Part shown: positions 532 to 15,617 of the stretch, piece by piece | Numbering within the stretch: position 1 is the first letter of the stretch | Layout: every line of letters starts with the position of its first letter | Origin: Malikia granosa | GTDB taxonomy: Bacteria; Pseudomonadota; Gammaproteobacteria; Burkholderiales; Burkholderiaceae_C | Reading direction: 5' to 3' | DNA length: 41,979 nucleotides | Assembly: GCF_002980595.1 (NCBI RefSeq) | Contig: NZ_PVLQ01000053.1 | Coordinates: 1 to 41,979 of the forward strand | The notes under the pieces: generated by a model | Databases searched by the model: none | Told to the model about the DNA's origin: nothing | Seen by the model: the letters and a program-made list of their open reading frames with translations, nothing else | Translations under genes and position numbers: made by a program

Positions 532-1464
532 TCAACAGGAGGCTCCGGCCTCGGGCTTGCTGAGTCGCCCGCCCCAGCAGTCGACGGTTTCCTTGATGAG
601 CCGGGCCACGATGCGGCAGGCCTGGGTGATCTGGCCTTGCCTGGGCATGGCCAGGGTCACGTAGCGCTTGAGGTCCGGCTGGATCAGCTTGGCCGCCTGC
701 AGCCGACCTGCACTGAGCTCCTCGTCCATCGAGAACGGGCCGAGCAGCGCATAGAGGCCGTATCTGTCGGCGATCAGTTCCTTTTGCACCCGCAGCGAGT
801 CGGCCTCGACTGCCGCCTGCAGGCTGAAGCCCTGGCTGCGCGCGGCTTCATCGAGGATGGAGCGCCAGTGCGCCGGCCGGCGCGGCAGCACCAGTGGCAG
901 GTTCTCGAGCTGGCTGAATTCCACCGTGTCGCCATCGGTCAGCGGCATGTCCGGGCCCGAGACCAGGTAGGTGCTGGCGGTCGAGAGCAGGACCTCGTCC
1001 TGGCTCCTGGGCTGCTCGTAGCGGAACAGGATCGCCATGTCGACGCTGCCGGTATCGAGCAGTGCGTCGAGTTCGCCGCCCTGGCCCTCGCGGATATTGA
1101 GCCGGATGCGGGGGAATTCCTGGCGCAGCTGCTTGAACACCTGGGTCATCAGCGGATGCCCGGCCGAAGGCAGGATGCCCAGCCTGACTTCTCCCATCGG
1201 GACCTTGGCGGTCTGCGTGATGTCAGCGAACAGGGCATCCGTGTCCTTGATCCAGGCGCGCACCCGGCGTTCGACATCGGCGCCGTATTCGGTCAGCACC
1301 ACGCCACGGCCCGTGCGCCGGAACAGCGCGCTGCCGCAGGCCTGTTCGAGCTCGGCGATCTGGCGGCTGATGTGCGACTGCACCGTGTGCCGCTGCGCCG
1401 CCACCTTGGTGAAGCTGCCCATCTCGGCCACTTCCAGGAAAAGACGGAAGTCACTGATGTTCAT
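532..1464 (-). CDS. LysR-family transcriptional regulator
   Basis: A 310-residue protein with the LysR layout: an N-terminal winged helix-turn-helix (about residues 1-60, beginning MNISDFRLFLEVAEMGSFTK) and an effector-binding domain from about residue 90 to the end. I chose the ATG at 1464 because it places the family N-terminus at residue 1; a longer reading frame to 1599 would add an unrelated tail and run into the neighbouring start. It is divergently oriented to the FAH-hydantoinase operon, and the 136-base gap holds interrupted palindromes and TGTCT repeats. It is therefore the likely regulator of that operon, with a pathway substrate or intermediate as coinducer. The ligand cannot be deduced from the sequence. 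Confidence 0.9.
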   Translation of the reverse strand: MNISDFRLFLEVAEMGSFTKVAAQRHTVQSHISRQIAELEQACGSALFRRTGRGVVLTEYGADVERRVRAWIKDTDALFADITQTAKVPMGEVRLGILPSAGHPLMTQVFKQLRQEFPRIRLNIREGQGGELDALLDTGSVDMAILFRYEQPRSQDEVLLSTASTYLVSGPDMPLTDGDTVEFSQLENLPLVLPRRPAHWRSILDEAARSQGFSLQAAVEADSLRVQKELIADRYGLYALLGPFSMDEELSAGRLQAAKLIQPDLKRYVTLAMPRQGQITQACRIVARLIKETVDCWGGRLSKPEAGASC

Positions 1465-1480
1465 GGCCTGGCTCCTGAAA

Positions 1481-1516
1481 TGTCTTTTTTGGCATGTCTG
1501 AGATGCCTGTCTGCAT
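1481..1516. promoter_or_regulatory. Candidate LysR operator between the divergent genes
   Basis: TGTCT occurs three times at 1481, 1495 and 1508, spaced 14 and 13 bases apart. Two overlapping palindromes lie among them: GGCAT-N7-ATGCC at 1491-1507 and ATGC-N6-GCAT at 1503-1516. Interrupted dyads of this kind are typical LysR-type regulator sites. The position is right for both autoregulation and activation of the operon that starts at 1601. Confidence 0.5.
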
Positions 1517-1600
1517 TCTATCTGGATGGGTTTACCTTCCCTAGACTGCCTTCCATCTGTGCAGCTCCAGTGTTTGGCACAGGATTCGAGAGGAAGCAAG

Positions 1601-2455
1601 ATGGGTTTTCTGAGTTTTGAATGGGATGGGCGCCAGACCTACGGCGTCCGGCAGGACGAGGGGTCTTACCTGGAGGCGCCAGCCGCCTTCCGCGAACAGT
1701 TCCCAGACCTGAAGTCGGTCATCGCGGCAGGCCAGCTCGCCGGGCTCAAGGCCGCCGCACTCGCGCAGGGTGCGGTGGTGCCGGCAGGTCAGGCTCGCCT
1801 GCTGCCCGTGATCCCCAACCCGGGCAAGATCTTCTGCGTCGGCCTCAACTACAAGAGCCATGTCGCCGAGATGAAGCGTCCCGACGCCGACCATCCGGCC
1901 ATCTTCGTGCGCTTCGCCGACAGCCTGGCCGCTGCCGATGCTGCACTGCAGCGGCCGGCCTTTTCCGATCGCTTCGATTACGAGGGCGAGCTCGCCATCG
2001 TGATCGGCAAGGGCGGACGCCACATCAGCCAGGCCGATGCCTTCGACCATGTCGCGGGCTACGCCTGCTTCAACGACGGCACGGTGCGCGACTGGCAGCG
2101 GCATACCCACCAGTGGACGCCGGGCAAGAACTTCCCCGTCACCGGGGCCTTCGGTCCCTGCCTGGTGCCGGCCGATGAAGTGGGCGACGTCAACGCGCTC
2201 ACGCTGCAGACGCGGCTCAACGGCCAGATCGTCCAGCAGGCCTCGCTGGACGACCTGATCTTCACCATTCCGGTGATCGTCGAGTATCTCTCGCGCTTCA
2301 CGCCGCTGGCTGCCGGCGACGTGATCGCCACCGGCACGCCCGGTGGCGTGGGTGACAAGCGCAATCCGCCGCTCTACATGCAGGACGGCGACCTGGTCGA
2401 GGTCGAGATCACCGGCCTCGGCATCCTCCGCAACACCGTGGCGCAAGCCGCCTGA
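1601..2455 (+). CDS. Fumarylacetoacetate hydrolase (FAH) family protein
   Basis: A 284-residue protein. The FAH-family fold normally hydrolyses, isomerises or decarboxylates acylpyruvates and related 2-oxo acids using a bound divalent metal. The signature FCVGLNYKSH lies near residue 78. The metal-binding block DYEGELAIVIGKGGR (about 126-140) carries the two conserved glutamates, with the partner aspartate in CFNDG near 159. I start at 1601, preceded by GAGAGGAAG; the in-frame start at 1526 is upstream of any homology. Its stop lies three bases before the hydantoinase A start, so the genes are co-transcribed. In context it probably handles the acid released by the hydantoinase-type enzyme. 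The exact substrate is unknown. Confidence 0.88.
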   Translation: MGFLSFEWDGRQTYGVRQDEGSYLEAPAAFREQFPDLKSVIAAGQLAGLKAAALAQGAVVPAGQARLLPVIPNPGKIFCVGLNYKSHVAEMKRPDADHPAIFVRFADSLAAADAALQRPAFSDRFDYEGELAIVIGKGGRHISQADAFDHVAGYACFNDGTVRDWQRHTHQWTPGKNFPVTGAFGPCLVPADEVGDVNALTLQTRLNGQIVQQASLDDLIFTIPVIVEYLSRFTPLAAGDVIATGTPGGVGDKRNPPLYMQDGDLVEVEITGLGILRNTVAQAA

Positions 2456-2458
2456 AGC

Positions 2459-4561
2459 ATGGCCTCCAGCCCTACACCTACCACCATGGAACACAAACCC
2501 CAACTGCGAATTGCCGTCGACATCGGCGGCACCTTCACCGACATGGCGGCCTTCGACGAGGCCAGTGGCAAGCTGCTGTTCGGCAAGGCGCTGTCCACGC
2601 ACGGCGAGCTCGTCAAGGGCATCCAGGCCACGATCGACAGTGCCGGCATAGACTGGCGCGACGGCCACCTGTTCCTGCATGGGTCGACCATCGCGATCAA
2701 CACCCTGCTCGAGCGCAACGGCGCCAAGACCGCCCTGCTGATCACCGAGGGTTTCCGCGACATCTACGAGATCGGCCGCGTCAACCGCCCCGATGCCTAC
2801 AACCTGTTCTTCAACAAGCACGAGCCGCTGGTCAGGCGCTCGCTGCGCTTCGAGGTGGCTGAACGGCTGCGTGCCGATGGCAGCCTGCACAAGCCGCTGG
2901 ACGAGGAGGCCGTGCGCGAGCTGGCGCGCGAGCTCAAGGTCGAGGGCGTCGAGGCGGTAGCGGTGCTGCTGCTGCATTCCTACCGCAATCCGGCCCACGA
3001 GCAGCGCGTCAAGCAGATCATCCAGCAGGAGATCCCGAACGCCTTCGTCTGCGCCTCGCACGAGCTGTCGCAGGAATACCGCGAGTTCGAGCGCGTCTCC
3101 ACCGCGGTGGCCAATGCCTATGTCGGCCCGCGGGTGTCCGAATACCTGGGGCAGCTCGAGGAGCATCTCGGCAGCAAGGGCTTCGACGGCGACTTCTACA
3201 TCGTGCAGTCGACCGGCGGCCTGTTCCCGGTCGAGCATGCCAAGGTCGGCTGCGTGCGCATGCTCGAGTCCGGCCCCGCCGCTGGCGTGATCGGCGCGCA
3301 GGCGATCTGTGCCCAGCTCGGCATGGGCGACGCGATCGCCTTCGACATGGGCGGCACGACGGCCAAGGCCGGCGTCATCAGCGAGGGCCGGCCGCTGACC
3401 ACCGGCTCGGCGCTGATCGGCGGCTACGAGCGTGCGCTGCCGATCCAGATCCCGATGATGGACATCCATGAGGTCGGTACCGGCGGCGGCTCGATCGCCC
3501 GCGTCGAGACCGGCAACGCCTTGCGCGTCGGCCCCCAGAGCGCCGGCTCGATCCCGGGGCCGGTCGCCTACGGCCGCGGCGGCACCGAGCCGACCGTGAC
3601 CGACGCCAACCTGCTGCTGGGGCGCCTGGATGCCGAGCATTTCCTCGGCGGCGAGCTCAAGCTTGATCTGGCGGGCTGCCAGCGCCAGATGCGCGAGCGC
3701 GTCGCTACGCCGCTCGGGCTCGACCCGACCGAAGCTGCCGATGGCATCCTGCGCATCGCGGTGACGCAGATGTCGCATGCGGTCAAGGCCGTGACGACCG
3801 AGCGCGGCCTCGATGCCGGCAGCTTCACGATGGTGGTCTACGGCGGTGCCGGCCCGCTCCATGCCTCGGCGATCGCGCGCGAGATCGGCATCCGCAAGGT
3901 GCTGATCCCCTATGCGCCGGGCTATTTCTCGGCCTACGGCATGCTGTTCTCCGACCTGCGCTACGACTATGTGCGCTCGGTGTTCCGCAAGCTCGGCGAT
4001 GTCTCGTTCGAGGAGATCGAGGCTGCCTACCAGTCGATGGAAGACGAGGGGCGCGCCGCGCTCGCGCAGTCTGGCATAGCGCCCGACGGGGTCGTGATCG
4101 AGCGCGCGGCCGACATGCGCTATGTCGGCCAGGAGCACGCCGTCACCGTCGACCTGCCGCTGGCCTTCTTCGAGTCCAGGGACCGTTCCGCGATCAAGCA
4201 GCAGTTCGACGAACTGCACAAGGTCCGCTACGGCACCTCGGCGCCCAAGGAGCCGGCCGACCTGGTGAGCCTGCGCGTCACCGTGCTGGGCACGATGAAG
4301 AAGCCGCCGCGCCACAGCGTCGAGTCGGGCCGCGCCACGCCCGAGCCGGACGCGCTGCGTGCCGTCAAGCCGGTCTACTTCCGCAACGGCGGCTGGGCCG
4401 AGACGCCGGTCTACCTCCGCGACCAGCTGCGCTCGGGCAACCGGATCGTCGGCCCGGCGCTGATCGAGGAGCATGCCTCCACCACGGTCATGCAGCCCGG
4501 CGACGAGCTGTGCGTTGATGAACTTGGCAACCTGCAAATTTCCATTGGGAGCGACCGCTGA
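2459..4561 (+). CDS. Hydantoinase/oxoprolinase subunit A (ATP-dependent)
   Basis: A 700-residue HyuA-type subunit, about the normal length. It carries actin-like ATPase motifs: VDIGGTFTD near residues 19-27, FDMGGTTAKAG near 295-305 and the VVYGGAGPLHA block near 460. Family members use ATP to open hydantoin or 5-oxoproline rings, or form the ATPase part of acetone/acetophenone carboxylases. They work as a complex with the B subunit, encoded next. The start is ambiguous: the ATG at 2459 follows the FAH stop by three bases, while an ATG at 2486 is closer to the homologous region; neither has a strong ribosome binding site. The stop overlaps the next ATG by one base (TGATG), which implies translational coupling. 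Confidence 0.92.
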   Translation: MASSPTPTTMEHKPQLRIAVDIGGTFTDMAAFDEASGKLLFGKALSTHGELVKGIQATIDSAGIDWRDGHLFLHGSTIAINTLLERNGAKTALLITEGFRDIYEIGRVNRPDAYNLFFNKHEPLVRRSLRFEVAERLRADGSLHKPLDEEAVRELARELKVEGVEAVAVLLLHSYRNPAHEQRVKQIIQQEIPNAFVCASHELSQEYREFERVSTAVANAYVGPRVSEYLGQLEEHLGSKGFDGDFYIVQSTGGLFPVEHAKVGCVRMLESGPAAGVIGAQAICAQLGMGDAIAFDMGGTTAKAGVISEGRPLTTGSALIGGYERALPIQIPMMDIHEVGTGGGSIARVETGNALRVGPQSAGSIPGPVAYGRGGTEPTVTDANLLLGRLDAEHFLGGELKLDLAGCQRQMRERVATPLGLDPTEAADGILRIAVTQMSHAVKAVTTERGLDAGSFTMVVYGGAGPLHASAIAREIGIRKVLIPYAPGYFSAYGMLFSDLRYDYVRSVFRKLGDVSFEEIEAAYQSMEDEGRAALAQSGIAPDGVVIERAADMRYVGQEHAVTVDLPLAFFESRDRSAIKQQFDELHKVRYGTSAPKEPADLVSLRVTVLGTMKKPPRHSVESGRATPEPDALRAVKPVYFRNGGWAETPVYLRDQLRSGNRIVGPALIEEHASTTVMQPGDELCVDELGNLQISIGSDR

Positions 4562-6357
4562 TGAATCCCGTCATCCACCCGGCCAGCAGCGCTGGCAACA
4601 CCGTCGATCCGGTCACGGTCGAGATCATCCGCAACGGCCTCTATGCCGTGACGGAGGAGATGAAGACCAACCTGACCCGCACCGCCTACAACCTGATCAT
4701 CTACGAGGCGCTGGACTTCACGGTCGGCCTGTTCACCAAGGAGGGCGACACGGTGTCGATCGGTCTGGGACTGCCGATGTTCATCCGCGGCATGTCCGAG
4801 ACGGTCAAGGCCAAGATCCGCCATTTCGGCTACGAGAACATCCGGCCCGGCGACATCCTGGTCACCAACGATGCCTACACCACCGGCAGCCACCTGAACC
4901 ACTTCACCTTCACCATGCCGGTGTTCCACGAGGGCAGGCTCGAGGGCTTCACCTGCTGCATGGCGCACTGGCTGGACGTGGGCGGCACGCTGGGCAACGT
5001 CACCACCGACATCTTCAGCGAAGGGATCCAGATCCCGATCATGAAGTACCAGCGCGAGGGCGTCGTCAACCAGGACCTGATCGACATCATCGCGATGAAC
5101 GTGCGCCTGGCCGAGCGCGCGCTGGGCGACCTGCGCGCGCAGATCACGGCGATCACGACCGGCGAGCGCCGCTACGTCGAGCTGCTGCAGCGCTATGGCG
5201 CCGACGCCGTCAATGGCGCCATCCGCCAGATCATGGATTCGTCGGAAGCGGTGGCACGCCAGAACACGCTGTCGATCCCGGATGGCATCTACGAGGCCGA
5301 GTCCTTCATGGACGACGACGGGCTCGAGATCGGCAAGCGCATCCCGATCAAGGTCAAGGTCATCGTCCAGGGCGACGAGATGACCGTTGACCTGTCCGAT
5401 GTCAGCAAGCAGGTGCGCGGCTTCTACAACTCGGGCTTCACCACCGGCATCGCCTGCGCCCAGGTGGCCTACAAGTGCCTGACCACGCCGACCGACTACC
5501 CGGTCAACGACGGGTCTTTCAGGCCGCTGAAGGTCATCATGCCGATGGGCACGGTGATCAGCGCCGAGCGCCCCTACCCGATGCGGGTCTGGATGACCTT
5601 CCCGATGACGGTGATCGACACCATCTTCAAGGCGCTGGCACCGGCCATTCCGGATCGCTCGATCGCCGGCCACCATGCCGACCTGGTGTTTCCCAACATC
5701 CACGGCATCTCGCCCGAGGACGGCCGGCTGTTCATCGTCGGCATCGGGCCGCTGGGCGGCGGCTGGGGCGCCAAGAGCCGCGAGGACGGTGTGTCGGTCA
5801 CCGTCTGCATCAACGACGGCGACACCCACAACAGCCCGACCGAGCAGCTCGAGGCCAAGTACCCGGTGCTGGTCGAGAAGTACGAGATCCGCCGGGACAG
5901 CGGTGGCGCCGGCCAGTACCGCGGCGGCCTGGGCGCCGAGATGGTGGTGCAGGCGCTTGCGCCCTTCACCGTGACGACGCGCATCGACCGCGTGCACTGC
6001 AAGCCCTGGGGCCTGGAGGGCGGTGGCGACGCGATGGGCAACGGCCTGGCCGTGCGGCACAAGGGCGAGTGGAAGACCGACCACCCGAACGCCAAGATCT
6101 TCAACGTGCGCCTGGAGCGCGGCGATGCCTACAAGATGCTCTCGGGCGGCGGTGGCGGCTTCGGCAATCCGCTCGAGCGCGAGCTCGACAAGGTGGCCGA
6201 GGACGTGCGCGAAGGCTACGTGAGTGCCGAGGTGGCTCGCGAGGTCTACCAGGTCGTCGTCGACGAGCGCGGCCAGCTCGACCATGCCGCCACCGAGGCG
6301 CTGCGCACGGCGAAGCGCGACGGCGTGGCCGACGAGCTGGCCTGGGACGGCCAGTAA
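4561..6357 (+). CDS. Hydantoinase/oxoprolinase subunit B
   Basis: A 598-residue HyuB-type subunit with full-length family similarity. It opens with DPVTVEIIRNGLYAVTEEM, has the conserved GDILVTNDAYTTGSHLNH segment near residues 99-116, and has a glycine-rich LSGGGGGFGNP motif near 533. The B subunit partners the A subunit in ATP-dependent hydantoinases, 5-oxoprolinases and ATP-dependent carboxylases such as acetone and acetophenone carboxylase. Its start overlaps the A stop, so the two are made in equal amounts. Sequence reading alone cannot tell hydrolase from carboxylase. The small CxC protein and GTPase just downstream make a metal-dependent member worth considering. Confidence 0.92.
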   Translation: MNPVIHPASSAGNTVDPVTVEIIRNGLYAVTEEMKTNLTRTAYNLIIYEALDFTVGLFTKEGDTVSIGLGLPMFIRGMSETVKAKIRHFGYENIRPGDILVTNDAYTTGSHLNHFTFTMPVFHEGRLEGFTCCMAHWLDVGGTLGNVTTDIFSEGIQIPIMKYQREGVVNQDLIDIIAMNVRLAERALGDLRAQITAITTGERRYVELLQRYGADAVNGAIRQIMDSSEAVARQNTLSIPDGIYEAESFMDDDGLEIGKRIPIKVKVIVQGDEMTVDLSDVSKQVRGFYNSGFTTGIACAQVAYKCLTTPTDYPVNDGSFRPLKVIMPMGTVISAERPYPMRVWMTFPMTVIDTIFKALAPAIPDRSIAGHHADLVFPNIHGISPEDGRLFIVGIGPLGGGWGAKSREDGVSVTVCINDGDTHNSPTEQLEAKYPVLVEKYEIRRDSGGAGQYRGGLGAEMVVQALAPFTVTTRIDRVHCKPWGLEGGGDAMGNGLAVRHKGEWKTDHPNAKIFNVRLERGDAYKMLSGGGGGFGNPLERELDKVAEDVREGYVSAEVAREVYQVVVDERGQLDHAATEALRTAKRDGVADELAWDGQ

Positions 6358-6365
6358 GCCAGGCA

Positions 6366-6405
6366 GCGGCGGCAGGGCGCGTCAGCCGCGCCGTCAGCCC
6401 GCCGC
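6366..6405 (+). repeat. Nested GC-rich stem-loop between hyuB and the small CxC gene
   Basis: Outer arms GCGGCGG (6366-6372) and CCGCCGC (6399-6405) enclose inner arms GGCGCG (6376-6381) and CGCGCC (6387-6392). No T-tract follows, so it may serve as an mRNA stability or attenuation element rather than a terminator. It sits in the only sizeable gap (96 bases) of this operon, apart from the stretch before the Bug gene. Confidence 0.4.
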
Positions 6406-6453
6406 CTGCTGGCAAGGCCAGCCGGCCGCTTCAACCCATGACATGGAATCGAG

Positions 6454-6825
6454 ATGTTAGCCGTGACCACCATGCAAGAACAGGCCGCACGCCTGATGGA
6501 TCTCTGGAGTCGCCTGTCGGCCCAGCATATCGCCCTGGGCTGCTCCTGCAATATGGGAGGCATCAGCGTCACGCTGGAGGACTTCGAGCGTGACATTGCC
6601 GACTACCTGTGGGCCGAGAGCGAGCGCCTGGGCCGTCCGGACGTGGTCGACTTCCTGCTGCAGCCCGGTCCGATCGAGAGCCAGGACCGCGCGATTCGCC
6701 TGATCCTGGCGCGGATCGAAGAGGGCGAGGCAATCCCCGAGGTGGCCGACTGGCTGCTGCCGCGCATGAAGAAGACCCTGGAGTCCTTCGCCAGCCTGCA
6801 CGGCCCCACCGGCGGGCTGACCTGA
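6454..6825 (+). CDS. Small CxC-containing protein of the hydantoinase operon
   Basis: A 123-residue soluble protein that I do not recognise by family name. Near its N-terminus is the motif LGCSCNMGG (Cys30 and Cys32), followed by an acidic, mostly helical sequence. The CxC pair could bind a metal. It has no signal peptide or membrane segment. An alternative start at 6472 (Met7) would shorten it slightly without touching the motif. Thirteen bases further on begins a G3E-family GTPase gene, whose relatives insert metals into enzymes. By position it could be a small structural or metal-carrying subunit of the hydantoinase-type enzyme; some ATP-dependent carboxylases of this family have a small extra subunit. 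This role is inference only. Confidence 0.75.
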   Translation: MLAVTTMQEQAARLMDLWSRLSAQHIALGCSCNMGGISVTLEDFERDIADYLWAESERLGRPDVVDFLLQPGPIESQDRAIRLILARIEEGEAIPEVADWLLPRMKKTLESFASLHGPTGGLT

Positions 6826-6837
6826 AAGGAGGTCGCG

Positions 6838-7932
6838 ATGAGTCCGATATTTCCCGCCCTGGTGCCCCATGCGGCCGATGCCGGGCCACAGGTGCCCGTG
6901 ACCGTGCTGACGGGCTTTCTCGGCAGCGGCAAGACCACCTTGCTCAACCGGCTGCTGCGCCTGCCCGACCTGGAGGGCGTCGCGGTGGTCATCAACGAGT
7001 TCGGCGCCGTCGGCCTCGACCATGACCTGGTCGACCATGCGCAGGAGGACATGGTGTTGCTCGCCAACGGCTGCATCTGCTGCACCATCCGCGGCGACCT
7101 GGTCGGCGCCTTCGAGCGGCTGGCCGACAGTCCGGCCGCCAGGCAGGGGCGGCTGCGCCATGTCGTGCTCGAGACCACCGGCCTGGCCGATCCGGCGCCT
7201 ATCCTGCACACGCTGATGGGCGACCTGCGCGTCTCCAGGCGCTGGCGCCTGGCGGGCGTGGCCTGCACGGTCGATGCCGTCAACGGCATGGGCACCCTGG
7301 ACCGGCAGCGCGAGTCCGTCAAGCAGGTCGCTGTCGCCGACGAGCTGCTGGTGACCAAGACGGACCTCGCCGATGGCGCTGCCCTCGACGGTCTGCTGGC
7401 GCGCCTGCGGACCATCAACCCGACCGCCAGCATCAGTCGTGCCGATCAGGATGCGCTGGAGTCGCTGCGCGGACTGCTGGACCGATCACCCTGTGCAGTC
7501 CGCGAGATCGTCGACCCGGACTATCAGCCCTTGTCGTTCCGCCCGGTCCCGGCGCCGCACCATCATGCTGTTCACGACGATGGCGTGCGGACCCATTCGA
7601 TCGTGCGCGATCAGCCTCTGCCCCGGGAGGGCTTCCTTGCCTGGCTCGACCTGGTCGCTTCCATGCGCGGCGACGACCTGCTGCGCGTCAAGGGCCTGGT
7701 CAACCTGGAGGACTCCCCCGAGGGGCCCACGGTCATCCATGGCGTCCAGCATGTCTTCCATCCCCCCGAGCTGCTGGATCATTGGCCAAGCGATGACCGG
7801 CGCACCCGGATCGTCTTCATCACGCGCGACATCGATGTCGCCAGCCTGGAGGAAACGCTCAACGTGCTGACCAGGCGGCGCAGAAGACGCCCCGAGCAGC
7901 CCGTGACGGTCCCGCTGCCGCGGGATACCTGA
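6838..7932 (+). CDS. G3E-family GTPase (CobW/P47K-type metallochaperone)
   Basis: A 364-residue protein with the G3E hallmarks in order: Walker A GFLGSGKTT (26-34), the metal-binding GCICC motif (78-82), ETTGLADP (112-119), a TKTD nucleotide-specificity motif (173-176) and a C-terminal CobW domain. A histidine-rich stretch (PHHHAVHDD) lies near residue 240. The start is well supported by AAAGGAGG just upstream. These GTPases move a metal (Co, Zn, Ni or Fe in known members) into target enzymes. Encoded directly behind hydantoinase subunits and a CxC protein, it probably matures that enzyme. The metal is unknown. It is unlikely to be cobalamin-specific CobW, because no cobalamin gene is nearby. 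Confidence 0.92.
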   Translation: MSPIFPALVPHAADAGPQVPVTVLTGFLGSGKTTLLNRLLRLPDLEGVAVVINEFGAVGLDHDLVDHAQEDMVLLANGCICCTIRGDLVGAFERLADSPAARQGRLRHVVLETTGLADPAPILHTLMGDLRVSRRWRLAGVACTVDAVNGMGTLDRQRESVKQVAVADELLVTKTDLADGAALDGLLARLRTINPTASISRADQDALESLRGLLDRSPCAVREIVDPDYQPLSFRPVPAPHHHAVHDDGVRTHSIVRDQPLPREGFLAWLDLVASMRGDDLLRVKGLVNLEDSPEGPTVIHGVQHVFHPPELLDHWPSDDRRTRIVFITRDIDVASLEETLNVLTRRRRRRPEQPVTVPLPRDT

Positions 7933-8010
7933 GGAAGGATTACCCCGACCTTGCAGGCCCAGGCATGTGGCGGGGCCGGACGCCTATTCGTATTTTTCGA
8001 GGAGACAAGC

Positions 8011-8979
8011 ATGAAATCAATCACCAGAATCCTGGTCCCGATGTGCCTGCTGCTGGGCACAGCCAGCAGCATGGCGCAGGGCAAGTATCCGGACGGGCCG
8101 ATCAAGCTGATCGTGCCCTTTGCCGCTGGCGGCGGGGTGGACAATGCGGCCCGGCTCATCGCCAAGCAGATGCAGTCCAGCCTGAATGTCCCGATCATCA
8201 TCGAGAACCGACCGGGCGCCAATGGCTCGATCGGCGGCAAGGCGGTGCAGACGGCAGCCGCCGATGGACAGACCCTGCTGTTCTCTGCCTCGACCCAGGT
8301 GCTGGCCCGACAGGTCATGGCCAGTCCGCCCTACGATCCGCTGACGGACTTTTCCTTCGTGGCCCGGGTGGGGCAGGCGCCCTTGCTGATGGTGATCTCG
8401 CCCGGCTTGCCGCAAGGCAAGCTCAAGGACGTGATGGACGCGGCAAAGCAGAATCCCGACAAATGGTCGGCCGGCCTGCCGGCGCTGGGGGCGGCCAGCC
8501 ATCTGGCCACCTTGATGCTGGCCAAGCAGGGCAATCTGAAGCTGACCACGGTGACCTACCGCGGCACGGCGCCGGCCCTGACCGACGTGGCGGGTGGCCA
8601 TACCCAGATCCTGATCGACTCCATCGTGTCGCTGCAGTCGATGGCCAAGACGGGGCGCGTCAAGCCCATCATCGTGACCTCCGCTGCCCGCAGCTCGGTG
8701 ATGCCCCAGATACCGACGGCGGTCGAGAGTGGCTATCCGAAGTTCGTCGCCGAGTCCTGGTACGGGATCTGGGCCCCCAAGGGATTGGCCGACGACAGGG
8801 TGCAGCAGCTGAACCGGGCCGCCAACGACGCCGTCAAGGAGCTGGCCAAGTCGGGCGCCCTCGAGAAACTGGGCCTGGAGCCGGTCGTCGAGTCGAGCGC
8901 CGACTTCAGGAAATATGCGACCCAGTACCTGGCTGACAATGCCGAATTGCTGAAGGAGTCGGGCTTCAAGCCCGAGTGA
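8011..8979 (+). CDS. Bug-family periplasmic solute-binding protein (TctC-like)
   Basis: A 322-residue extracytoplasmic binding protein. The N-terminal signal peptide (MKSITRILVPMCLLLGTASSM, cleavage after AQ/AQG) leads into the family start YPDGPIKLIVPFAAGGGVDN and the conserved ENRPGANGSIGG segment. Bug proteins bind small carboxylates or related compounds in the periplasm, sometimes for tripartite tricarboxylate transport; no TctA/TctB genes are present here. The start at 8011 has GAGGAG six bases upstream; a frame from 7951 would place sequence before the signal peptide. It is the last gene of the operon and probably captures the operon's substrate. Confidence 0.92.
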   Translation: MKSITRILVPMCLLLGTASSMAQGKYPDGPIKLIVPFAAGGGVDNAARLIAKQMQSSLNVPIIIENRPGANGSIGGKAVQTAAADGQTLLFSASTQVLARQVMASPPYDPLTDFSFVARVGQAPLLMVISPGLPQGKLKDVMDAAKQNPDKWSAGLPALGAASHLATLMLAKQGNLKLTTVTYRGTAPALTDVAGGHTQILIDSIVSLQSMAKTGRVKPIIVTSAARSSVMPQIPTAVESGYPKFVAESWYGIWAPKGLADDRVQQLNRAANDAVKELAKSGALEKLGLEPVVESSADFRKYATQYLADNAELLKESGFKPE

Positions 8980-9030: not shown

Positions 9031-9142
9031 CTTGCTGCTTCCTGTCGGCTGTCGGCATGGCCTGCGGCGGGAGCCGTCATGCCATTTCCGATCAGGCTGG
9101 GTAAACTCAGGCAGCTTCCTGCCCGACCGACTCGAGAGCCAT

Positions 9143-9538
9143 ATGGGATTCATCGACACCACGCGTGCCTGGGCGCGCCGCATCAAGCGAGATGCCATGA
9201 CCTTGTGGTTTGCACGCGCGCACCCGCAGACGCCCTGGTATGCCAAGGTGATGGGCGGACTGGTGCTCGCCTACGCGCTCAGCCCGATCGACCTCATTCC
9301 CGACTTCATTCCGGTGCTTGGCTACCTCGACGACGTCATCCTGCTGCCGGTCCTGATTTGGCTGACGGTGCGGCTGCTGCCGCCCCAGGTCCTGGCCGAA
9401 TCCCGTCACCAGGCCGAGCAGTGGATGGCCGAGCAGGGCGCCAAGCCGCGCAGCCGGGCCGGCGCCGTGGCGATCGTGCTGGTCTGGCTGGTCGTCGCGC
9501 TGATGCTGTCGCTGTGGGTCGCCACGGCGCTGGGCTGA
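9143..9538 (+). CDS. DUF1232 (YkvA-type) small membrane protein
   Basis: A 131-residue protein containing the DUF1232 signature: AYALSPIDLIPDFIPVLGYLDD at about residues 52-73, a hydrophobic hairpin followed by more membrane-prone sequence. A second hydrophobic helix lies at the C-terminus (about 110-131). The family is widespread and its function is not established. I start at the ATG at 9143; an upstream in-frame start at 9032 would add unrelated residues that overlap the repeat region. It is a single-gene unit, convergent with ccoG. Confidence 0.85.
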   Translation: MGFIDTTRAWARRIKRDAMTLWFARAHPQTPWYAKVMGGLVLAYALSPIDLIPDFIPVLGYLDDVILLPVLIWLTVRLLPPQVLAESRHQAEQWMAEQGAKPRSRAGAVAIVLVWLVVALMLSLWVATALG

Positions 9539-9585
9539 GCAGCGGGCGTTCCAGTTGCAGCCTGGCCTGGGCTGTTGCCGGGGGG

Positions 9586-9605
9586 CCTGTCCCGGCTGGG
9601 ACAGG
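9586..9605. terminator. Perfect hairpin between convergent genes
   Basis: CCTGTCCC (9586-9593), loop GGCT, GGGACAGG (9598-9605) form an 8-bp GC-rich stem. It lies between the DUF1232 gene (ending at 9538) and the ccoG stop (9614), where a bidirectional terminator is expected. Neither side has a good T-run, so rho may assist. Confidence 0.55.
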
Positions 9606-9613
9606 GGGGCGGG

Positions 9614-11011
9614 TCAGCGAGGCACGAGGAAGCTGCTTTTTTCCCTCACCTGGGGACCTGCCTGCTCGCCCTCGAGCTGCTCGATCACGAACTGTATCGG
9701 GACGGTCTGGCCGGCCAGCGCCGCGGCCTGCTGGCCGGCCAGGCGCGCCGTTACCGTGACGGTCTGCTCGGCCACCGGTCCCAGCTCGATGCCGGGCGGG
9801 GTGGCCAGCGTCAGGCCTTGCGGACCGACGACGTCGATCCGGTAGCGCTGCACGCTTTCCTGGCTGTTCATGATCTGCAGGCGATAGACGTTCTCGACCG
9901 CGCCTTGCTCGACCAGCCGTGCCAGCACGCCCCGGTCGCGCATCACATCGACGCGGAAGGGGCTGCGCTGGGCCAGGCCGGTCACGAAGGCCGCGCCGAT
10001 GGTCAGCAGCAAGGCGCCATAGACCAGCACCCGCGGCCGCAGCGCCCGCTGCAGCACCCGGTCCCGGCCCCAGCCTTGTTCCAGTCCGGTCTGCGAGGAG
10101 TAGCGGATCAAGCCGCGCGGACGTTCGATCTTGTCCATCACCGCGTCGCAGGCGTCGATGCAGGCGGCGCAGCCGATGCAGTCGCTCTGCAGGCCGTCCC
10201 GGATGTCGATGCCGGTCGGGCAGACCTGGACGCACAGCGTGCAGTTGATGCAGTCGCCGAGGCCGGCTGCCTGGGCATCGGTACCGCGCGGGCGCGAGCC
10301 GCGGGGTTCGCCGCGGGCGCTGTCGTAGCCGATGATCAAGGTGTCACGGTCGAACATCACGCTCTGGAAGCGGCCGTAGGGGCACATGTGCTTGCAGATC
10401 TGCTCGCGCAGGTAGCCGGCATTGCCGTAGGTGGCCAGGCCGTAGAAGCCGATCCAGAAGGTCTCCCAGGGCCCGGTGTCCAGCTGGGTCACGAGTCCGC
10501 CCAGGGTCTGGATCGGCGTGAAGTAGCCGACGAAGGTGAAGCCGGTCCAGAGGCCGATCGCGATCCAGGTCGCCTGCTTGCCAGTCTTGCGCGCCAGCTT
10601 GGCCGCCGTCCACGGCGCGGCATCGAGCCGGATGCGGGCGCTGCGGTCGCCCTCGAACAGCCGCTCGACCCAGAGGTAGATCGCGGTATAGACCGTCTGC
10701 GGACAGGAGAAGCCGCACCAGACCCGCCCGGCCACCGCCGTCACGAAGAACAGCCCGAGTGCGCAGATCACCAGCAGCAGCGCCAGGTAGATGAAGTCCT
10801 GCGGATAGAGCACCAGGTCGAACAGGTAGAAGCGGCGCGCGTCGAGGTCGAACAGCACGGCCTGGCGATCGTTCCAGTTCAGCCAGGGCAGGCCGTAGAA
10901 CAGCAGCTGGGTCAGCCAGACCAGGGCCCAGCGCCATCGGCTGAAGCGTCCGTGGCTGGCTCGGACATGGATCTTGATGGGGGCGGTCTGTGGGGGCAAA
11001 AGCTGGGACAT
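9614..11011 (-). CDS. ccoG: Cytochrome cbb3 oxidase accessory protein CcoG (RdxA/FixG)
   Basis: A 465-residue membrane ferredoxin-like protein. It has several membrane helices in the first half (about 30-45, 72-95, 148-165, 180-200), the conserved CGFSCPQTVY (99-108) and CKHMCPYGRFQ (206-216) segments, and two 4Fe-4S clusters (Cys254, 257, 260, 264 and Cys278, 281, 284, 288). A last membrane helix and an Ig-like C-terminal domain follow. In other bacteria CcoG helps deliver copper to cbb3 oxidase. Here it stands away from any ccoNOP genes, so the oxidase genes must be elsewhere. The ATG at 11011 is preferred over one nine codons upstream. It is divergent from the GntR/MocR gene. Confidence 0.93.
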   Translation of the reverse strand: MSQLLPPQTAPIKIHVRASHGRFSRWRWALVWLTQLLFYGLPWLNWNDRQAVLFDLDARRFYLFDLVLYPQDFIYLALLLVICALGLFFVTAVAGRVWCGFSCPQTVYTAIYLWVERLFEGDRSARIRLDAAPWTAAKLARKTGKQATWIAIGLWTGFTFVGYFTPIQTLGGLVTQLDTGPWETFWIGFYGLATYGNAGYLREQICKHMCPYGRFQSVMFDRDTLIIGYDSARGEPRGSRPRGTDAQAAGLGDCINCTLCVQVCPTGIDIRDGLQSDCIGCAACIDACDAVMDKIERPRGLIRYSSQTGLEQGWGRDRVLQRALRPRVLVYGALLLTIGAAFVTGLAQRSPFRVDVMRDRGVLARLVEQGAVENVYRLQIMNSQESVQRYRIDVVGPQGLTLATPPGIELGPVAEQTVTVTARLAGQQAAALAGQTVPIQFVIEQLEGEQAGPQVREKSSFLVPR

Positions 11012-11103
11012 GGGGCAATCGACTCGGAAAAGCCTCACTGTGCCGCGCTTGCATCTGATCGGTAAGATTCAGTTTTCTGAAAAATTACCATATCAGTTCA
11101 AGC

Positions 11104-14260: not shown

Positions 14261-15617
14261 GCGCGGCCGACGAGGAGTCGGACGCCGAGTGGGCGGCTGT
14301 CGGCCCGCCGAAGCGCACCGTGACGCGCAAGCCGCCCAGCGCCGAGGCATCGAGATCGACCCGGGCCTGATGCCGCTCGGCGACCGCGCGCACGATCGCC
14401 AGTCCCAGGCCGCTGCCGGGCACATCCGTGCCGGCGCGCCGGTAGAAGCGGTCGAAGGCACGCTCCCGCTCCTGCGCCGGAATGCCGGGTCCCGAGTCCT
14501 CGACCACCAGCGTCGGGGCCATGGTGCCGTCCGGCGCTGCGACACTGCCGAGCTGCACTTGCACCCTGGCTGCGGCCGGGCTGTGCTGGATCGCGTTCTC
14601 GACCAGGTTGCGCACCAGCGAGGCCAGGCTCGGGGCATGGCCCAGCATCTCCAGCGGGCCGCTCGAGAGCAGCTCGACATCGGTGCGCTTGACGCGGGCC
14701 ATGGGAGCCAGGCTGGCGACTTCGCGTCGCACCAGCTCGTCCAGGTCCAGCGCCTGCATCGCCTGCGCCGGTGCGTCCGGCTCGTTGCGCGCCAGCAGCA
14801 GCAGCTGCTCGACCAGCCGGCTGGCGCGCTCGATGCCCTGCGCCAAGTCGTCCAGCGCTGCTTCGCGCTGCGGGCCTTGGTGGGCCTGGCGCAGCAGGTG
14901 CAGCTGCAGCTTGAGCGCGGTCAGCGGCGAGCGCAGCTCGTGCGCGGCATCGGCCACGAAGGAGCGCTGCGCCTGCCAGGCGGTCGCGAGCCGATCCAGC
15001 AAGTCGTTGAGCGCTTGCGCCAGTGGAGCGATCTCGCCTGGCAGCCCCGCGAGCGGGATCGGCTGCAGGCTGGCGGCATCGCGCGCATGGACCTCGGTGG
15101 CCATGCGCTGCAAGGGGCGCAGGGTGATGATGGCCAGCCACCAGGCAGCCAGGGCCAGCAGAGGGGCCAGCAGCAGCAGCGGCGTCACGCTGCGCAGCGC
15201 CGAGTCGGTCGCCATGCGGCGGCGCACCGCCTCGGGCTGGGCCACCTGTATCACTCGTCCCGGCGTAGCCACGCTGTAGGTGCGCCAGAGCTGTGAGCCG
15301 GCACGGATGTCGGCATAGCCGAGCTGGGCCCGGTTGGGCAGCATTTCGTGGGCCTGCGAGGCATAGATCACGCGCCCGTCCCGCGACCAGATCTGGATCA
15401 CGAAGTCGAGCCGCTCGTCGCTGAGCAACTGTTCGCCAGGCGCAGCCACCTCGCCCTGGTCGCGCAGCGACAGCGCCATCTGGCGCAGCTGGTAGTCGAA
15501 CAGGGCCTCGGCCTGTTCCAGCGTGTTGCGGTAGGCCAGGCTCCCCATGACGACGGCGGCGCAGGCCAGCAGGAACAGCAGGGCCAGCAGCAGGCGCGCG
15601 CGCAGCGAACGGATCAC
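14256..15617 (-). CDS. Two-component sensor histidine kinase (QseC/TctE-like)
   Basis: A 453-residue inner-membrane kinase. Membrane helix 1 (about 8-28), a periplasmic domain (30-143) and helix 2 (144-165) are followed by a HAMP-like linker, a HisKA domain with the phospho-acceptor His226 in DAAHELRSPLTALK, and an ATPase domain with N (NLVENAIQH), G1 (EDSGPGIP) and G2 (GSGLGLAI) boxes. I start at GTG 15617, which overlaps the response-regulator stop by four bases (GTGA); the frame extends further upstream but only as antisense-like sequence inside the regulator gene. It phosphorylates the adjacent regulator. The stimulus is unknown, probably an envelope or small-molecule signal. Confidence 0.92.
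   Translation of the reverse strand: MIRSLRARLLLALLFLLACAAVVMGSLAYRNTLEQAEALFDYQLRQMALSLRDQGEVAAPGEQLLSDERLDFVIQIWSRDGRVIYASQAHEMLPNRAQLGYADIRAGSQLWRTYSVATPGRVIQVAQPEAVRRRMATDSALRSVTPLLLLAPLLALAAWWLAIITLRPLQRMATEVHARDAASLQPIPLAGLPGEIAPLAQALNDLLDRLATAWQAQRSFVADAAHELRSPLTALKLQLHLLRQAHQGPQREAALDDLAQGIERASRLVEQLLLLARNEPDAPAQAMQALDLDELVRREVASLAPMARVKRTDVELLSSGPLEMLGHAPSLASLVRNLVENAIQHSPAAARVQVQLGSVAAPDGTMAPTLVVEDSGPGIPAQERERAFDRFYRRAGTDVPGSGLGLAIVRAVAERHQARVDLDASALGGLRVTVRFGGPTAAHSASDSSSAAP

Follow-up and report, generated by a model that had tools for sequence, protein, structure and literature searches.

The closest described relatives of the locus analysed here are the ATP-dependent hydantoinases, 5-oxoprolinases and caprolactamases, including the caprolactamase CapAB (6yra) and N-methylhydantoinase (7hk5), which share with it a hyuAB core consisting of HyuA, with the motifs DxGGT and GxxPGP, and HyuB, a PF02538 protein. 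The phosphate and adenosine motifs of HyuA have been defined, as have the metal ligands of caprolactamase (D41, H99, D102 and H124), mutants of which are inactive (PMC8453981). The same hyuA-hyuB-small gene order is found in acetone carboxylase, AcxABC, in which the metal resides in the HyuB-type subunit (PMC5214803, PMC5543143) and is held by E89, H150, D153 and H175 (PMC5543143). Acetone carboxylases took up metal in E. coli without chaperones (PMC10865871).

The locus also encodes a relative of the COG0523 G3E GTPases, which include YjiA, CobW, ZigA/ZagA and the nitrile hydratase activator Nha3, the gene of which likewise lies beside that of its presumed client. To our knowledge, few clients of COG0523 GTPases have been identified. 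A review names three COG0523 roles, and the terms hydantoin, oxoprolin and carboxylase are absent from its main text (PMC9164220), as are oxoprolinase, acetone carboxylase and fumarylacetoacetate from the main text of a survey of the family (PMC2770081). A full-text literature search, which covered few subscription journals, returned no hydantoinase paired with a G3E GTPase, COG0523 or a cobW operon, and for oxoprolinase with a metallochaperone it returned only matches unrelated by title.

The window (the whole stretch of DNA analysed, 41,979 nucleotides) contains six genes on the forward strand, the families of which agree with Pfam and with an earlier note made from the sequence alone, together with a divergent LysR gene that is part of the operon unit (Table 1). 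All reading frames from LysR through Bug (532-8979) are open, and the LysR protein probably starts near 1464 instead of at the listed ORF start. The spacing between successive genes from FAH to Bug is 3, -1, 96, 12 and 78 bases, so that the tight spacing described earlier holds at 3, -1 and 12 bases and fails ahead of CxC (96 bases) and ahead of Bug (78 bases). The HyuAB and COG0523 families are both known, and CxC is a small protein family for which no name was found; its motif LGCSCNMGG occupies residues 28-36 of the 123-residue protein, as had been read.

Table 1. Genes of the operon and their coordinates in the window.
Feature	Coordinates	Strand	Remarks
LysR-type regulator	532..1599	-	divergent; Pfam HTH_1 and LysR_substrate; coordinates are those of the ORF as listed
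FAH-family protein (fumarylacetoacetate hydrolase superfamily)	1601..2455	+	PF01557, E 2.1e-69; GAGG upstream of start
HyuA, ATP-binding subunit	2459..4561	+	PF01968, PF05378, PF19278 (Hydantoinase_A with N and C domains)
HyuB, metal subunit	4561..6357	+	PF02538 (Hydantoinase_B), E 1.9e-155
CxC protein, 123 aa, undescribed family	6454..6825	+	no family match; W18, H25, C30, C32 and H116 from alignments
G3E/COG0523 GTPase, predicted metallochaperone	6838..7932	+	PF02492 and PF07683 (cobW and CobW_C)
Bug/TctC periplasmic substrate-binding protein	about 8011..8979	+	PF03401, E 4.6e-48; listed ORF begins at 7951; GAGGAG precedes the ATG at 8011

HyuA belongs to the hydantoinase/oxoprolinase family by its PF01968 domain, its DxGGT phosphate motifs (DIGGT at 21 and DMGGT at 296) and its GxxPGP adenosine motif (GSIPGP at 363), and its closest PDB relatives are N-methylhydantoinase 7hk5 and caprolactamase 6yra_A. 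Those of HyuB, the only HyuB in the window's genome, are 7hk5, 6yra_B, 5l9w_A and 5m45_A. Scores against the caprolactamase NCBIfam models (524 and 288) fall far below the cut-offs of 1000 bits, and those against the ApcC and ApcD equivalog models (303.6 and 134.3 bits) fall below cut-offs of 1500. Pfam gave no sign of the extra Apc subunits within the operon.

Alignment with characterised relatives predicts D52, H111, H114 and H136 as the metal ligands of the window's HyuB, the second aspartate being replaced by histidine, so that the protein departs from the Asp/Glu-His-Asp-His tetrad that is the norm of the family and is found in the Acx and Apc enzymes. Its metal site thus reads HxxH, in contrast to the HxxD of hydantoinase and caprolactamase, and the operon differs from theirs also in the addition of the CxC and G3E genes. 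Because its kinship with PF02538 is certain, HyuB is called a variant of the hydantoinase/oxoprolinase family. The DHHH tetrad is present in all 31 HyuBs read from its clade (22 of 22 clade loci and 9 of 9 more from family f11), which was delimited at about 58% identity or more to the window (lowest 57.99%). It occurs in none of 59 other HyuBs, of which 51 carry DHDH, seven DHNH and one EQDH; these controls comprise the 30 highest-ranking PF02538 hits from a phylum sample of 150 genomes, mainly long frames of the fused oxoprolinase type, with 20 hand-picked hits of the same sample and nine distant Burkholderiales loci. The apparent ligand exchange is new here and absent from the earlier note, which had proposed a metal-dependent HyuAB complex with CxC as third subunit or metal carrier loaded by the GTPase; the changed ligand set of HyuB makes metal dependence more likely. 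Three residues before ligand H136 lies C133 (CMAHW, residues 132-137), which is invariant in 22 of 22 clade loci, is also a cysteine in some controls and may be a further ligand or a redox residue. A second HyuB group in the same order (L073-L079) has asparagine in place of the metal aspartate, giving D-H-N-H in seven of the nine distant loci.

The G3E GTPase of the window has the P-loop, CxCC motif and CobW_C domain by which COG0523 members are recognised, and shares with them the G1, CxCC and TKxD motifs. These are intact, as the earlier note had reported, with GFLGSGKTT from residue 26, GCICC at 78 and TKTD at 173, and the P-loop, CxCC and TKxD are intact in all eight operon copies aligned. 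Histidine-rich stretches are common in metal chaperones; the window's GTPase has a short HHHxxH stretch, and long ones are present in those of the Janthinobacterium and Duganella operons. Searching 15 genomes for G3E genes yielded 55 matches, 30 of them taken further as loci, and the window's genome alone has five cobW-domain matches, four of them above the cut-off. A tree was built from the eight operon copies and 27 other rows (26 genes, one of them twice), leaving out 25 matches that were weaker or not fetched. A single branch in it separates the operon G3Es from the other rows (96/93; 0 of 500 shuffles gave so low a value), for which the bootstrap is not fully settled. The window's GTPase differs from the described COG0523 GTPases named above in belonging to a clade of its own beside hyuAB. 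Family membership and gene order lead us to infer that the operon G3E would deliver metal to a client in a GTP-dependent manner.

The order LysR-FAH-HyuA-HyuB-CxC-G3E is kept in the window and six related loci (L009, L011, L012, L013, L014 and L027), and a divergent LysR ortholog is found in L009, L010/L013, L011, L012, L014, L027, L028 and L030. One of the six copies lies on plasmid CP099606 of Comamonadaceae bacterium OTU4NAUVB1, where the annotation reads LysR, FAH, two hydantoinase genes, a hypothetical protein, a GTP-binding protein and a substrate-binding protein. Further copies are present in Comamonas sp. BIGb0124 (L013, with L010 at the same place), two Janthinobacterium genomes, one Duganella genome and genomes G084 and G168, in the last of which (L026) LysR and FAH were not seen because the contig starts within the operon. 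No Bug match follows G3E in the Janthinobacterium and Duganella loci, and an MFS-type transporter gene follows it in L012. The distribution of CxC is patchy: it was matched in three of 60 genomes of a first sample, the window's included, and is absent from four genomes of the same genus.

Over nine loci, identity to the window is 77-93% for HyuA and HyuB, 41-68% for CxC, 49-68% for G3E and 60-68% for FAH; HyuB taken alone (82-93%) is far more conserved than CxC, and FAH, G3E and Bug are as variable as CxC. Only 28-71% of the four-fold synonymous sites of FAH, CxC and G3E match those of the window, so that the gene order has persisted through much synonymous change; on this sequence evidence its recurrence is more than chance. 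At four-fold sites the match of HyuA and HyuB (0.56-0.76) exceeds that of the other genes (0.41-0.71, with one CxC pair at 0.28) by only a modest margin, which points to purifying selection as the main cause of the high HyuAB identity. Recent transfer was considered as its cause and rejected on the same comparison.

HyuB was searched for in 398 genomes of the order, with up to three candidates scored per genome, so that further clade members may exist there. Seventeen loci had at least 59% identity and nine had 41% or less. CxC lies directly downstream in nine of the 17 (presumably so in one of these, G037, where the gene is split over two contigs) and was not found in seven, and the remaining locus stops at a contig end; all five loci at 90% identity or above, the window included, have it, and none was found beside the nine distant loci. 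CxC occurs in 9 of 399 genomes of the order sample, 18 of 70 of family f11 and 4 of 5 of family f3, and none was found outside the window's own family in a class sample (2 of 369 positive) or a phylum sample (3 of 398 positive), in which only 11 or 12 candidates were scored per genome with a model that may miss diverged members. All nine CxC genomes of the order sample also hold the DHHH HyuB clade, itself found in 14 of 398 genomes (hypergeometric 3e-15, uncorrected for kinship between genomes). Given this and the single clade of operon G3Es, the independent scatter of CxC and the GTPase relative to hyuAB, which the earlier note had named as refuting its proposal, is not seen. On the HyuB tree the CxC label needs two changes within the clade, leaving out the outgroup and the unreadable L070, and four over all rows, which would fit either early gain and loss or repeated gain.

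The G3E gene directly follows CxC in eight of the 14 CxC loci of the first set and is absent beside it in the other six (L028 to L033, where the contig of L031 extends only about 1.2 kb downstream). Those G3Es of these six loci's genomes that entered the tree group outside the clade of the operon copies. No G3E match was found in the stretches of the seven clade loci without CxC and the nine distant hyuAB loci, nor beside any of 11 hyuAB-linked loci of family f11, some of these contigs being short. Operon-type G3Es were thus seen beside hyuAB only where CxC is present, and the absence of G3E beside many CxC and hyuAB loci indicates that it is not strictly required. As the seven clade loci without CxC or an adjacent G3E share DHHH, the exchange reaches beyond the link with CxC and G3E, and neither is indispensable for a DHHH site; a general chaperone could serve the HyuBs that have no G3E beside them.

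The CxC protein of the window has no Pfam or NCBIfam match at 0.001, no PHROG match and no PDB match below E 1. Members of its family likewise have no Pfam or NCBIfam match at 0.001 and match named families weakly at most, the best being AraC_binding_2 (E 0.0023, in one of 23 members), with DUF5076 in three of 14 members (best 0.0088), and the best PDB match of the family is 0.028. In the 14 members directly after HyuB, W18, H25, C30, C32, L52, L85, S111 and H116 are invariant, whereas in 23 diverse members only L14, W18, C30, C32 and L52 are, with H25 close to invariant. Many non-hyuAB members have lost H116, which is missing in L034, L195, L205, L207, L208 and L213, and the CxC of L200, which lies near hyuAB, is without both H25 and H116. 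In the hyuAB type, H25, C30, C32 and H116 are a possible metal site, judging by this conservation. Structure models of the window's protein and its L011 homolog, built from six sequences, consist of helices (mean pLDDT 80.5 and 78.5). Their CxC loop is of low confidence (block means 58 and 47) and forms a hairpin in the first model and none in the second; Foldseek returned no PDB match to them at E 0.001.

Forty CxC loci were viewed, namely the first set of 14 and 26 more (L034 and L189-L213), the latter making up, with L033, all 27 matches in family f11. The hyuAB genes lie within the stretch in 25 of the 40, with CxC directly downstream of HyuB in 17 and nearby or divergent in eight. They were not found near CxC in 15, some on short contigs, where CxC instead neighbours genes for an amidohydrolase (L034, L193, L205 and L206), an FAD_binding_2 flavoprotein (L189 and L194), an Ldh_2 protein (L208), an ABC permease and a Bug protein (L210), an MscS-like protein (L195 and, judging by sequence, L197), a DndB-like protein (L213 and, likewise by sequence, L209 and L212) or still other proteins (L207 and L211). 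A G3E gene directly downstream of CxC was found only in hyuAB-type loci. The idea that CxC is exclusive to hyuAB was abandoned once the family f11 search had revealed it in other operons. Among the amidohydrolase-type loci, L206 (5389-9238) has CxC beside the amidohydrolase and, about 1.5 kb further on and on the opposite strand, a G3E gene that shares 42% identity with that of the window; the stretches of L034 and L205 gave no G3E match.

The reading tentatively preferred, at somewhat less than an even chance, is a metal-dependent HyuAB that has been remodelled and is served by a COG0523 chaperone of its own, with CxC as a metal-binding accessory and not an obligate third subunit. CxC might alternatively be a stoichiometric third subunit of HyuAB, analogous to AcxC or Apc gamma with its structural zinc, leaving G3E to load only HyuB. 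Its position directly after HyuB in 17 loci is that of acxC in acetone carboxylase operons (PMC5214803), both proteins are small and cysteine-bearing, and most contacts of gamma are with the metal subunit (PMC5543143). This is nevertheless an unlikely account: CxC has no kinship with AcxC (hhalign probability 1.7%, E 0.029, with only two sequences on the AcxC side), its models are helical, it is much less conserved than HyuB (although FAH, G3E and Bug vary as much), it is missing at seven clade loci and it has relatives in other operons. That CxC is a diverged AcxC or Apc gamma was rejected, as there was no profile match, PF08882 hit or fold match; it lacks the four-cysteine zinc site, and PF08882 is matched nowhere in the window's genome. 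CxC as an obligate third subunit is therefore left unsupported, while the earlier proposal of metal dependence has gained in likelihood. The most telling argument against CxC being by definition part of HyuAB comes from the 15 loci without hyuAB, which favour a modular accessory.

The same loci agree with a broader view, in which CxC is a general small accessory family of many catabolic operons (a sensor of thiols or metals, a regulator or a targeting adaptor) that takes no direct part in inserting metal, and G3E serves HyuB alone. The variety of neighbouring genes, the reduction of the invariant set to five residues among diverse members and the loss of H116 in many non-hyuAB members speak for it; the hyuAB linkage of 25 loci, the retention of H116 in all 14 members directly after HyuB and the restriction of an adjoining G3E to the hyuAB type speak against it, leaving a possibility that is on the unlikely side. 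It is improbable that the operon is an ordinary hydantoinase operon in which CxC and G3E are mere neighbours by descent, retained through co-transfer. The patchy occurrence of CxC within the genus and the plasmid-borne copy would be explained in this way, but the order has been kept despite strong synonymous-site divergence, the HyuB metal ligand is unlike that of all 59 controls and the motifs of every aligned operon G3E are intact.

Under the preferred reading of a remodelled HyuAB with its own chaperone, the operon would be a LysR-controlled catabolic unit for an organic acid, probably a carboxylate, imported via the Bug protein. Judging by the families involved, HyuA would phosphorylate the substrate, perhaps with bicarbonate as well, using ATP, and the activated compound would pass to the HyuB metal site to be hydrolysed or carboxylated there, the FAH protein acting on the product. 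The Asp-to-His exchange should favour a softer divalent metal, such as zinc, cobalt or nickel, over manganese or iron, and the GTPase would be the dedicated COG0523 chaperone bringing that metal to HyuB. CxC may bind metal via H25, C30, C32 and H116 and either mediate between GTPase and HyuB, as an accessory or a docking partner, or cap HyuB in the manner of the acetone carboxylase gamma subunit, to which it is unrelated by descent. It is plausible that the ligand change created the need for a chaperone; such a need is not required, because seven clade loci have no chaperone gene next to them and, in E. coli, acetone carboxylases were metallated without a chaperone (PMC10865871). A bolder and rather doubtful extension is that CxC is a new family of small metal-docking adaptors, one per catabolic enzyme, which here would act together with a dedicated COG0523 GTPase to place a non-standard metal in a three-histidine HyuB site and so provide new chemistry for the hydantoinase/ketone-carboxylase family.

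The conserved gene order, the single clade of the chaperone and the exchanged HyuB ligand together point to one specific COG0523 client. This HyuB clade includes members that have CxC and G3E and members that lack them, and so offers a natural comparison for why some enzymes of the family would need a chaperone and acetone carboxylases would not. The operon may also reveal the way in which an unusual metal reaches an enzyme.

Several further genes were noted around these loci. Downstream of the operon in the window, on the reverse strand (9614-11038), lies an ORF that by eye resembles a CcoG/RdxA-type iron-sulfur protein with CxxCxxCxxxCP motifs. In L203, a gene on the reverse strand (4815-5417) between HyuA and CxC resembles, by eye and from its start, a subunit of a Rieske ring-hydroxylating dioxygenase. 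L033 (G214) carries a possibly unrelated NicO-type nickel/cobalt permease gene (14443-15273, reverse strand) about 5 kb from its HyuAB-CxC genes, on the other strand, adjoining an ORF that by eye resembles a TonB receptor; nickel was dropped as a candidate HyuB metal, this permease being on the opposite strand, some 5 kb away and found at one locus only. The CxC frame of the same locus (9065-10477, forward strand) continues, uninterrupted by stop codons, into a stretch resembling a signal peptide and a YNCE-like beta-propeller, and would represent either a fusion or a second internal start.
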